41,451 nt of DNA from Desulfamplus magnetovallimortis (GTDB taxonomy: Bacteria > Desulfobacterota > Desulfobacteria > Desulfobacterales > Desulfobacteraceae), in contig NZ_LT828540.1 of the NCBI RefSeq assembly GCF_900170035.1, positions 947,419 through 988,869 on the forward strand. Reading direction: 5' to 3'. The notes below the pieces were generated by a model, which was not told where the DNA came from, searched no databases, and saw nothing but the letters and a program-made list of their open reading frames with translations. The stretch's first letter is position 1. Each line of letters starts with the position of its first letter. Shown here one piece after another: positions 7,221 to 24,780 of this stretch. Made by a program: the position numbers and the translations under genes.

Positions 7221-7318
7221 TGGCGGAAGTGCATGGGAATCGAACCCACCCGGGACGGTTTTAGCGCCCCACATCGGATTTGAAGTCCGAGGGCCCCACC
7301 AGTGAGCCGCGCACTTCC
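7221..7318 (-). tRNA. selC: tRNA-Sec (anticodon TCA)
   Basis: 98 nt including an encoded CCA. The acceptor stem GGAAGTGC pairs with GCACTTCC, the anticodon loop reads CTTCAAA with anticodon TCA, and the long variable arm and the T-loop GGTTCGATTCC are present. The length and UGA anticodon identify the selenocysteine tRNA, so the organism makes selenoproteins. The 3' end faces the BREX locus; selC is a well known integration site for genomic islands. No selenoprotein gene is recognised in this window. Confidence 0.95.
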
Positions 7319-20535: not shown

Positions 20536-20594
20536 GGCTAACGCCAAAATCAGCGGCACGGCTTTTTGCGTCCGCTGGATTTTTTTGTTATGTG
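20536..20594. other. attC-like site 1
   Basis: On the plus strand it begins GGCTAACGCC and ends TTGTTATGTG. Inner arms TCAGCGG and CCGCTGGA pair imperfectly. The outer ends resemble the R'' and R' boxes of integron attC sites, and the RhuM stop codon (TAA) lies within one end, as in many gene cassettes. No integrase gene is in the window, so the assignment rests on shape alone. Confidence 0.4.
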
Positions 20595-21595
20595 TTTTTC
20601 TCATCTTTCAATAATTTTTTCATCTCACGGTCAAAATCAGAGATATATTTTTTATCCTCTTCTTTTCTATATTTCTCATATTCAATTTTTGCTTTTTCGA
20701 CCGCTTTTTTATGGCTGATTTTTCCGGCATTGGTTAAAAGTTCTTTCTCACTGATTCTCAGGAAATCATCAAGTTTTTGAATCCAGTCCTGCATTTTCAT
20801 TAACCTGCCGTTTGTTGCCTGGAGTTCAGCAAAATCGAGATACATGGAGACAATGAGATTGAGCTGCTTGAGTTCATCTTCAGAAAGATAATTTTTTGCT
20901 ATTGAAATATCTCTTGTGGTTATATATTTGCCGTGAAAATTGGTCAGCCCTAGAAATGGTTTTTCTGCGTCAACTCTTTGGCTTATCATTTCTGCTGCTG
21001 TCTGGCCGTGGATGGCATAGTGCATTTTATTTTGAACGGCTGCAAAAAATTCCCTGGTCAAAGCGGCATCCTTTTTATAATCAATGCTGGTTGCATAGAT
21101 ATCAGTGACTTTCTGGTAAAAATTTCTTTCACTGCTTCTGATATCCCGGATTCTTTGAAGAAGTTCTTCAAAATATCTTGACCTTGCGCCTTCCTGTTTC
21201 AAGCGGTCATCATCCATTGTAAAGCCTTTTACAATGTATTCATGAATCCGTTTAGTGGCCCACTGGCGGAATTTTGTACCTTGAGGAGATTTTACACGAT
21301 ATCCAACAGAAATTATAACATCCAAATTGTAATATTTGACCTGTTTGCTTTGAGTTTTACCCTCTATTGCACCGTGTTTTGTGGTATGTCGGAAAAGCCG
21401 ACACACCTCTTTTTCGTTCAGTTCCCTCTCTTTAAAAATATTCCCAATATGTTCAGTTATGGTTGTTCTTCCTTTTCCAAACAGCATTGCCATCTGTTCC
21501 TGTGTCAGCCAGACTGTTTCATCTTCCAACTGCACCTGAAGCTTTGTTGTACCGTCTGAAGCCGTATAAATGATTATTTCTGAATTATGTTCCAT
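20588..21595 (-). CDS. RhuM-family protein
   Basis: 335 residues matching the virulence RhuM family, common in genomic islands and beside restriction-modification genes; its biochemical role is not established. Characteristic stretches are the N-terminal YTASDGTTKLQVQLEDETVW, WLTQEQMAMLFGKGRTTITEHI (a helix-turn-helix-like segment), YRVKSPQGTKFRQWATKRIH, and the C-terminal Lys/Glu-rich helix. Start is the ATG at 21595, directly after the restriction-like gene stop at 21599, so the two are coupled. The stop lies in an attC-like site. Confidence 0.85.
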   Translation of the reverse strand: MEHNSEIIIYTASDGTTKLQVQLEDETVWLTQEQMAMLFGKGRTTITEHIGNIFKERELNEKEVCRLFRHTTKHGAIEGKTQSKQVKYYNLDVIISVGYRVKSPQGTKFRQWATKRIHEYIVKGFTMDDDRLKQEGARSRYFEELLQRIRDIRSSERNFYQKVTDIYATSIDYKKDAALTREFFAAVQNKMHYAIHGQTAAEMISQRVDAEKPFLGLTNFHGKYITTRDISIAKNYLSEDELKQLNLIVSMYLDFAELQATNGRLMKMQDWIQKLDDFLRISEKELLTNAGKISHKKAVEKAKIEYEKYRKEEDKKYISDFDREMKKLLKDEKNT

Positions 21596-22663: not shown

Positions 22664-22792
22664 GTTAATCGGTATTATCTAAAGATTGTGATAATCGCTA
22701 ATATCATTATTTTCTCTTTAAATTATTCACATAACAATAAGCTCACCAGCCACGCCTGACAAACTCCAAAAGAACCGCTCACGTCCTGCGTG

Positions 22793-24308
22793 GTATCGGG
22801 TAGCCGGGGTCTGTTTCCAGCCCCAAGCCGTAACGATAGGTAGGACTTTTCAGTCTTTCCCCCACTCCAAACCGTGCGTGCGACTTTCACCGCACACGGC
22901 TTTCCAGCTCAGAAATCGAAACTGATCTGTTCCTCACTACTCACCTGCTCGCCTGCACTTAACGTCCGGGCTGTGCCAGCAGCTTCAAGGCTGCTCCCAA
23001 TCTACAATTCCTGGTTAACATTTGATCAGGTTTTTGATTCTTCTTCGCCTGGCTTCCTTCACCATGTCCGAGCCATTACAGCTCGGCATTTGGCTACTAC
23101 GTTGCCTCCGCCCTCTCTCCCGCAGGCTGGCATTCTCGCCTCCCGTTAAGGTATAGCGGTGTGAGAGTTCCTCAGTTCCGATATAAGATACATAACAGCA
23201 ACCCTTAGCTGCCTGCTGTCCACCGGGTGGGCAATGAGACAACGCTTTGATGATTAGGGAGCATCAAAGCCAGCCACCTCACCATTTTGGTTCAGGTGTT
23301 TCAGCCATTTTCACCTGTTACGGTTCACGACGGTTAAGCAGATTCCTGTTCGTCAGCATAGTTTGCAGGGGTAGCCCGGTCATCCGATTTATGGCTATCA
23401 GAAGCCGGTACATTGTCTGAAGGCTTCACACCCTGACAAGTGCCGCTTGTCAACGCATGCTTCATCCCCCTTATGTTGTTGTCTAAACATAAATTCTTTA
23501 TAGAATCAATACCTTATATCGTTAAAGAGCGCACCCCTAAGAACCGTGCATGAGACTTTCACCTCACACGGCTCAAGCATTGAAAAAAGTTCCGTCAAGA
23601 ACCCGGCAATATCTAAAAACAGATGAATTGCCTTCTCGTTTCACATTTGTAGACAATTTACTTTGTTTGGCAGAAGCCTCCCAAAGCTCTCCAGGCCGTC
23701 AGTGACTAAAAGTCACCATCTATCCACACCATGAAGATAAAACTGCCCAAACGTTTCCCGGGATTCAACACCTGTCGGAAGTCTGCTCACTTTCGTGTCG
23801 GGGATACCCCCGTATCTGCCTCATTACAAGGCAGCCTTTGCTTTCTCCGACATCTTCTATCTGCTCACCTTACGGTTTGCTTTCCATACTTAAATGGAGA
23901 CAATTGGGCTTACCCTGATTCCTCTGATATTACACAGTAGGTTAGCGTCCGTCTATCCGCCGGGAGAATTTAAGATCACGTATGATGACACCAGAGCATC
24001 ACAACCATACCCCTCACCATTTTGGTCAAGGCTTGTCAGCATCTTTGGCCTCTCATCGCTAACGACGTTTATCGACGGTTCACATGTGTTACGCATACCA
24101 CCATTCTTAGCTTCCATCCAGCTTGATGCTGCCAGAGTTGAGGTTACCTCACGGTTTCCTCTCCAAGCCTTTCGGCTAAGGACTCCATTGTCCCCTGGGC
24201 TTCACACAAAATCGTTACCAGTAATGCATGCCAAGGTAAGAAACTGCCGGTGATACGGCAGGTTAATTTGCATTAATTAACAATAATATCAGCGACTTCA
24301 GGTCGCAC
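22793..24308 (-). mobile_element. Group II intron A, ORF-less, interrupted by intron B
   Basis: Read on the minus strand. The 5' end is GTGCGACC (24308-24301), matching GUGYG. A 34-nt domain V hairpin, GAGCCGTG to CACGGTTC, lies at 23574-23541 and contains the catalytic AGC and a GAAA loop. Intron B begins six bases later. After intron B, a domain VI-like hairpin GGGGCTG-GAAA-CAG-A-CCCC and a terminal GATAC (ending at 22793) complete intron A. Without intron B it is about 811 nt, and no reverse transcriptase frame remains, so it cannot move alone. Flanks match an attC-like site. Boundaries are from motifs, not from folding. Confidence 0.65.
22830..23534 (-). mobile_element. Group II intron B, ORF-less, nested in intron A
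   Basis: Read on the minus strand. It starts GTGCGCTC at 23534, just after domain V of intron A. A 34-nt domain V, AAGCCGTG to CACGGTTT, lies at 22902-22869, followed by a domain VI-like hairpin (GACTGAAAAGTC) and CCTACCTATCGTTAC ending at 22830. Length is about 705 nt with no reverse transcriptase. Its interior shares the block CCAAAATGGTGAGG with intron A, so both are of one intron class. Both insertion points read AGGG before GTGCG. Confidence 0.6.
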
Positions 24309-24333
24309 CCCTTGCAGCGCCTTGTTAGCCTTT

Positions 24334-24780
24334 TTATTTATCGCATTTTGAAAGTAGGTATTTACCCGCCTCATCAATCAAGGGGAATAGGTATCCTTGG
24401 TTCCCTGTTCCATTAACATTTAATGGTTTATGGGCGCCTTGTTTTATTAAAATATCTTGTAACTCAGCTAAAATATCAGGGATGTAAATAGGTCGTAACA
24501 AATTAGTGTATGAAGCGTCAATTTTTCGCCCATTGATTTCCCAAGTTTCTCCAGCGTCTCTAAAAGGATTGTTACTGTCGTAAGCATTACCCTGGGCGAT
24601 AGAGTAAGCAACTATGTATTGCCTGAAATAGGAAAAAATAATATCTCCTTTTCTTACATCTTTCATCGTGTCCCAGTGGTAAATATTTTTTCCTGATTTA
24701 GTATTTTTCGGTGCCCAAAGATATCCACCATTTTTTTCTTCATGATGTGTTTTGTTTTGAGATACCCACCAATAAGCCAT
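24334..24780 (-). CDS. EVE-like domain protein (N-terminal module of some HNH endonucleases)
   Basis: 148 residues with a strong AAGGAGG site. MAYWWVSQNKTHHEE, GGYLWAPKNTKSGKN and VRKGDIIFSYFRQYIVAYSIAQG match the EVE-like domain found at the start of some HNH endonucleases that act as modification-dependent restriction enzymes. EVE and related folds read modified bases. Here the protein stops after this domain and no HNH motif follows; the next sequence is an attC-like site. It may be a free-standing reader or a truncated nuclease. The family call is from motif memory. Confidence 0.6.
   Translation of the reverse strand: MAYWWVSQNKTHHEEKNGGYLWAPKNTKSGKNIYHWDTMKDVRKGDIIFSYFRQYIVAYSIAQGNAYDSNNPFRDAGETWEINGRKIDASYTNLLRPIYIPDILAELQDILIKQGAHKPLNVNGTGNQGYLFPLIDEAGKYLLSKCDK

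Follow-up and report, generated by a model that had tools for sequence, protein, structure and literature searches.

Nested ORF-less group II introns in an attC-like site of Desulfamplus magnetovallimortis, with the inner intron at the domain V/VI junction of the outer one

A stretch of 41,451 nucleotides from Desulfamplus magnetovallimortis (hereafter the window) carries two ORF-less group II introns on its minus strand, one nested within the other. The inner intron, B, interrupts the outer intron, A, at the junction of domains V and VI, and A itself lies in an attC-like site. Comparison with uninterrupted relatives confirmed that the twintron arrangement is real. We consider it highly probable that these are two stacked mobile introns, of which A homes to attC sites and B to the domain V/VI junctions of other introns, with reverse transcriptase (RT) supplied in trans. 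The proposal draws on the nesting and its boundaries, the EBS/IBS pairing of B, a second B copy at the same offset, the attC position of A and a related intact RT, all read from sequence.

Layout of the two introns

Two 34-nt domain V hairpins with GTGCG 5' ends had been proposed in a sequence-only reading of the window, and both were borne out by the Rfam model RF00029, with scores of 65.1 bits (22904-22830) and 56.6 bits (23576-23500) against a gathering score of 40. The second half of the 56.6-bit match, which belongs to intron A, is the 5' end of intron B lying in the place of domain VI. Upstream of each hairpin a domain I was matched by RF02012 (gathering score 34) at 112 bits (24262-24110) for intron A and at 35.3 bits (23491-23376) for intron B, the latter barely exceeding the threshold; domain V/VI and domain I thus score above gathering for both introns. 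The GTGCG ends are located at 24308 (A) and 23534 (B), the 3' ends are GAT and TAC, respectively, and both introns fit the GUGYG...AY rule of group II introns. Exactly six bases, TTAGGG (23540-23535), separate domain V of intron A from the start of intron B, as the earlier reading had it. No ORF of at least 80 aa (ATG, GTG or TTG start) was found on the own strand of either intron, in agreement with the claim that they are ORF-less and contain no RT; the two listed ORFs that overlap them (22874-23149 and 23894-24253) are on the plus strand.

When B was removed in silico, domain V of A met domain VI as in uninterrupted relatives, and the rejoined domain V/VI region is predicted to fold like a natural uninterrupted copy. 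One such copy occurs in the same genome (G000, 6.68 Mb) at C11:7307 and is 87% identical to A; its match to the window stops at query base 787 and resumes at 1492 from the same genomic base, so that the 705 bases of B are absent. Another (L029, 81% identity) is found on plasmid pHRM2a of Desulforapulum autotrophicum HRM2, with no annotated feature over the copy. Identity to A was 87% for L017, and 87% over 642 positions for the RT-bearing L018. In several more distant introns domain V runs directly into domain VI, with nothing at the B site. The outer intron of a twintron is expected to occur without the inner one as well, and this was found in L017, L029, L036 and others. The nesting that had been proposed therefore holds, since uninterrupted relatives align across the B site; the exon junction had to be moved from 22792, because comparison with the relatives places the end of A at 22795. 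Domain I of the pHRM2a intron contains a short tandem repetition (L029, ~2180-2220) of the GAAGCCCGGGGGACAAT type, which is absent from three aligned copies.

Two other arrangements of these parts were weighed. Two domain V units downstream of one 5' splice site could form an alternative-splicing device, such as Clostridium tetani C.te.I1, in which extra domain V/VI units provide alternative 3' splice sites (PMC4424553, from partial text). Here, the second unit brings a 5' end, a domain I and EBS sequences of its own, which rule out extra 3' splice sites of the C. tetani type, and the block is absent from A relatives, so that such a device is very improbable. A circularly permuted group II ribozyme, with D5-D6 before D1 (PMC8637638, from partial text), would likewise place a domain V directly upstream of a GTGCG domain I. 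It was ruled out by the normal domain order, each D1 preceding its own domain V, and by A relatives that have no B, and we give it practically no weight. Two introns, one within the other, are the preferred reading of the layout.

Table 1. Positions in the window of the nested introns, the attC-like sites and the adjoining ORF
Feature	Position	Strand	Basis or remark
Outer intron A, whole	24308-22795	-	ORF-less; ends CTACCCGAT; ends set from relatives
Intron A 5' part, GTGCG to 6 bases past domain V	23535..24308	-	D1D4-7 112 bits; relatives
Intron A domain I core	24110..24262	-	RF02012, 112 bits, E 6.2e-23
Intron A domain V, 34 nt, AGC triad, GAAA loop	23541..23574	-	RF00029; sequence
Intron A domain VI and 3' end CTACCCGAT	22795..22829	-	adjoins domain V in L017, L029, L036, others
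Inner intron B, 705 nt, ORF-less, GTGCG...TTAC	22830..23534	-	HSG16 copy; Rfam 65.1 + 35.3 bits
Intron B EBS2 GAACCGT	23320..23326	-	complement of ACGGTTC at -13..-7
Intron B EBS1 CCCTAA, hairpin loop	23254..23259	-	complement of TTAGGG at -6..-1
Intron B domain V, then its domain VI to 22830	22869..22902	-	RF00029, 65.1 bits
attC-like 5' half: R'' GGCTAAC, spacer, L''; 5' exon of A	24309..24330	-	15 nt to intron start
attC-like 3' half: L', R' GTTATGT; 3' exon of A, begins A	22729..22794	-	pairs with 5' half when joined
148-aa ORF ending at interrupted attC	24334..24780	-	likely cassette gene
Second attC-like site, uninterrupted, after RhuM-family ORF	20536..20593	-	R'' ACATAAC, R' GTTAGCC, arms -17.2 kcal/mol

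Intron B and domain V/VI junctions

The 13 bases upstream of intron B, ACGGTTCTTAGGG, consist of the 3' strand of domain V of A (ACGGTTC, 23547-23541), which is the IBS2 of B, and the linker. The insertion site looks like a targeted, base-paired homing site, a feature that the sequence-only reading had missed, with EBS2 pairing at 7/7 and EBS1 at 6/6 positions (13/13 in total). EBS2 is the sole 7-nt match in the first 450 nt of B, even with G-U pairs allowed, and EBS1 is the one all-Watson-Crick candidate among five; its stem is predicted and shows two-sided changes relative to the only other full-length copy, described below. Of the 187 pairs predicted for B as a whole, 27 differ at both positions between these copies and are still paired (two sequences, no control). 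The sequence AACCGT was present in none of 17 EBS2 loops extracted by pattern from other intron copies; the pattern did not extract the loops of B, HSG16 and the rumen contig L079, which were read directly.

Within the order, 291 genomes were searched, and B was matched in 39 of them, mostly at domain V alone. Besides the window, one end-to-end relative was found in Desulfobacterales bacterium HSG16 (L077, G093 contig C117, 40,100 bases), a genome of another family. Identity between the two copies is 83% at positions 1-488 and 94% at 626-705, and they align from GTGCG to TAC, which confirms the boundaries of B. In HSG16, too, six bases separate the copy from the domain V before it, here that of a different intron, and a domain VI-like hairpin is present downstream of the copy; EBS2 pairs at 6/7 and EBS1 at 5/6 positions (11/13 in total). 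With B in place of domain VI, the host domain V scores 32.4 bits, under the gathering score of 40, so this host intron may be decayed. Since the copy occupies the same offset, it is also unlikely that the 705-bp insertion in the window is an assembly artefact.

Intron B is rare, as a pattern scan of 395 genomes from the phylum recovered no further copy. Fragments of it also matched in G107, G149 and G175. The G107 locus (L050, C332, ~1490-1630) has a B-type fragment fused to the start of a host domain V and is perhaps a deleted third insertion. B was not matched in E. coli genomes. Matches occurred in 327 plasmid records, 302 of them from Enterococcus; among the 25 plasmid matches listed, all cover domain V only, except that of Deinococcus sp. 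QL22 (66.5% over the 3' half of B), around which no RT was found among the annotated features of 8.3 kb.

The pattern of a domain V immediately followed by GTGCG had no match in viral contigs and three in genome contigs. Two are real, namely HSG16 and the rumen contig L079; the third, from Archangiaceae (L078), has no Rfam group II match and was taken as chance. On the rumen contig, an RT-encoding inner intron of 2.3 kb starts six bases after domain V of an outer intron with its own 496-aa RT ORF. Each domain V there scores above gathering, and no domain I family matched on the contig. EBS2 of the inner intron pairs at 8/8 positions and a domain VI-like hairpin lies downstream, while for EBS1 there are three candidates, all with several G-U pairs and none convincing. 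The contig is filed under Ruminococcaceae. Among plasmids, only two records, both from Methanosphaera sp. ISO3-F5, are related to its inner ribozyme (75% over 118 nt); they also rank top for the intron-encoded protein (IEP, 51%), and the host may therefore be archaeal. Among 200 surrounding genomes the inner intron was found only in the contig itself, and viral contigs contained no relative. An ORF directly upstream of the rumen outer intron (L141, contig C32, 220-870) is presumably TnpB-like.

Just two full-length copies of B are known, a number that would suit an ectopic chance insertion for which the domain V/VI position has no meaning. We regard this as improbable, given that both copies lie at equal offset in different introns, that B pairs with its site throughout, and that the rumen RT-encoding intron is found at the same offset with a complete EBS2 pairing, but no clear EBS1. 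Returning to targeted insertion, we lean towards the view that domain V/VI-homing group II introns are intron parasites that arose in at least two lineages, the Desulfobacterota B and the rumen RT-encoding intron.

The attC-like site and the supply of reverse transcriptase

In silico removal of both introns joins R''/L'' to L'/R', and the rejoined flanks read GGCTAAC-15 nt-ACCACG...CGTGG...GTTATGT. The parts of the attC-like repeat that the sequence-only reading had recognized are thus present, and the second attC-like site and the position shared by the lineage agree with it. Taken alone, the window site is weak. Pairing of its L''/L' arms gave p = 0.067 against shuffles. A first attC scan, which was poor, failed to pick up the site because it filtered on the outer R''/R' bases, and counted 7 and 11 matches in the window, below five shuffles (15-28); a later scan counted 54 and 50 (6 and 4 with signature) against 58-71 (5-8) in shuffles. 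An early comparison of three cases with six null values was likewise poor, as was the null from cross-pairing of arms between loci, in which 20% of 182 reached -16 kcal/mol. Because single-site energy is weak evidence, the case for attC is built on the constant position among relatives and on better sites.

For the A lineage, 38 locus identifiers, several of them for the same place, yielded 22 distinct 5' ends by pattern, the rest being dropped; where GGTGCG and GTGCG both fitted, GTGCG was chosen. One end is masked at the junction, which leaves 21 scorable loci, the window included. AAC is located exactly 15 nt upstream of the intron start in 16 of these and 13-16 nt upstream in 19, L097 and L108 being those without it; L030, read by eye, is not attC-like either. 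Five loci were added, of which four have AAC at exactly 15 nt, while the fifth is A-type and interrupts domain I of a different intron. The L''/L' arms paired better than shuffles in 8 of 14 loci (p <=0.033), the non-passers besides the window being L137, L128, L132, L134 and L122. The 3' exon starts with A in seven of the eight passing loci and in the window, and we take this position to be an extrahelical base of the attC structure. In most scorable relatives, insertion in cassette orientation, inside L'' and 15 nt after the AAC of R'' thus appears as a trait of the lineage that the sequence-only reading had not noticed; the lineage is probably integron-associated and putatively IIB-like. 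Besides that of the window, a twintron was noted at L123 (G149:C1:69700-74000, positions 1-1770), where an A-type ORF-less intron of ~906 nt lies in domain I of a second intron; the inner domain V/VI ends at 1183 and the outer at 1766.

An automatic EBS/IBS search of the lineage revealed no column common to most members at the expected exon position. By eye from the alignment, EBS1 CTGGTG fits CACCGG of L017 and CAGGTT is exact for AACCTG of L029. EBS2 AGCGAT, also assigned by eye, fits L017, with four bases matching in window A and in L029, and seven EBS2 bases match in L031. The EBS1 of window A, CTGGTG by homology, pairs poorly by eye with the IBS1 of the same intron, CAAGGG; splicing of A may therefore be poor, or A may have changed after it inserted.

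At E 0.001, none of Pfam, NCBIfam and PADLOC matched the 148-aa ORF at the interrupted site. The RhuM-family gene (20588-21595; 476 bits against the PADLOC candidate defence family PDC-S05) is likely a cassette, since it lies directly before the second attC-like site. An IntI-like gene at C13:8260 (441.9 bits) is the only integron-integrase gene over the family cut-off and has one in-frame stop. Elsewhere in the window, a selenocysteine tRNA gene was annotated on the minus strand (7225-7318, 76.6 bits).

Six RVT_1 matches were found in the assembly. One intact group II IEP was found in the genome, L018 (C11), a protein of 487 aa with RVT_1 and GIIM that scores 355.7 bits against TIGR04416 (cutoff 300) and for which no endonuclease family, HNH included, matched in Pfam. 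It is encoded by a relative of intron A that lies ~100 masked bases after attC-like GGCTAACAAAACGCTCC. Two RVT_1 matches at C10 are broken pieces reading as group II IEPs, one of which scanned at 267.7 bits; the other three (163.4, 121.3 and 46.6 bits) are below the cutoff, and one of them matches AbiP2. About 57 kb past the window end, the same contig encodes a 513-aa RT (L012, G000:C1:1045650) with 684 bits to AbiP2 in PADLOC. At L022 (G000:C10, ~47.9-50.4 kb), the gene for a group II IEP is cut off, and after it comes what is left of an A-type intron, which has a further, broken IEP and no domain V match; the locus is another intron-in-intron relic in this genome.

The earlier suggestion of an RT acting in trans, to be looked for in the genome, is reasonable for mobility and is partly borne out by the L018 IEP, which could serve intron A. 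No RT was found for the lineage of intron B itself. That the L018 IEP might serve B too is our guess, modelled on the Thermosynechococcus elongatus twintron, in which one IEP served both introns (PMC2882425, from partial text).

According to the reading of two mobile introns, A would insert into attC in sense orientation, within L'' and 15 nt after the AAC of R''. EBS2 and EBS1 of B would read the domain V 3' strand and the linker of the host intron; B would reverse-splice into the host intron DNA at the domain V/VI junction and would be copied by the trans-acting RT. In RNA, B would leave first, because it separates domains V and VI of A, and these would then rejoin; A would splice next, rejoining the attC transcript. 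With attC split by 1.5 kb in DNA, cassette recombination there is expected to be blocked, and the split site would no longer serve the integrase.

A dead relic, with B having landed in an A that can no longer splice and both now decaying in a fossil cassette, would fit the poor EBS1/IBS1 match of window A, the weak window attC, the in-frame stop in the integrase gene and the broken group II IEPs of the genome. Nevertheless, domain V, the 3' ends and the EBS/IBS of B look intact and the changes between the B copies preserve pairs, so that we consider this alternative possible though rather unlikely, and continue to favour two mobile introns.

If they are such, pairing with the conserved catalytic domain V would make many related introns targets, and splicing of the host would depend on the parasite leaving first. 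The twintron would then offer an experimentally accessible example of RNA parasitism that takes advantage of a conserved sequence in another ribozyme and dictates the order of splicing. To judge by the attC rule, a second lineage of group II introns reads integron sites, with orientation and position unlike those of IIC-attC introns, and retroelements may thereby have one more way of freezing or rearranging gene cassettes.

Comparison with known nested and attC-associated introns

In prokaryotic twintrons whose published sites were examined, as far as the available portions of the reports describe them, the inner intron lies either within the IEP ORF or within domain I, whereas here it interrupts the catalytic core. 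Neither domain V/VI homing of prokaryotic introns nor a sense-orientation attC rule was found in the accessible text of the open-access literature searched. The original study of Methanosarcina acetivorans, judging by its title, reportedly concerns homing into the ORFs of related introns, unlike the domain V/VI junction here. The nested introns of M. acetivorans resemble B/A in being site-specific intron-into-intron homing, according to partial text of PMC4424553.

In T. elongatus, ORF-less F3 introns (TeI3c) are nested in F1 introns (TeI4c), and the IEP of TeI4c is able to act on both introns in splicing and in mobility (PMC2882425, in the portions available). Similar to B/A, an ORF-less inner intron occupies one conserved site of a mobile group II intron. 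However, that site is in domain IV, between two IEP ORF start codons, whereas B occupies the junction of domains V and VI; the outer intron there carries an IEP ORF, while intron A of the window is ORF-less. The Trichodesmium twintron, for which sequential splicing was reported, is a further bacterial group II twintron comparable to B/A (PMC4649490, from partial text). Unlike in B/A, its inner intron lies in domain I, both introns encode IEPs and the host is a protein-coding gene. A Wolbachia twintron is mentioned in PMC8919778, and a euglenoid plastid twintron located three bases from a 3' splice site in PMC5572947, both as given in partial text.

Group IIC-attC introns, like A, are group II introns that target integron attC sites (this and the following from available portions of PMC7923331). 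They belong to class IIC and insert opposite to the cassettes, at the bottom-strand R'' (TTGT/T); in contrast, A is in cassette orientation inside L'', with the junction G/A. A further comparable intron is UHB.I2, a IIB1/CL1 intron in a cassette array of Tanatar-5 soda lake, located immediately after attC (PMC7923331). Intron A shares with it the putative IIB type, the likely cassette array and the cassette orientation, and the reported UUGCG start of UHB.I2 resembles the GTTGCG start of several A relatives. UHB.I2 encodes an IEP and is not nested, whereas A is ORF-less and hosts B; UHB.I2 may belong to the A lineage. Bacterial twintrons are already known; what appears new, within the literature searched, is the proposed homing to domain V/VI junctions together with the sense attC rule.
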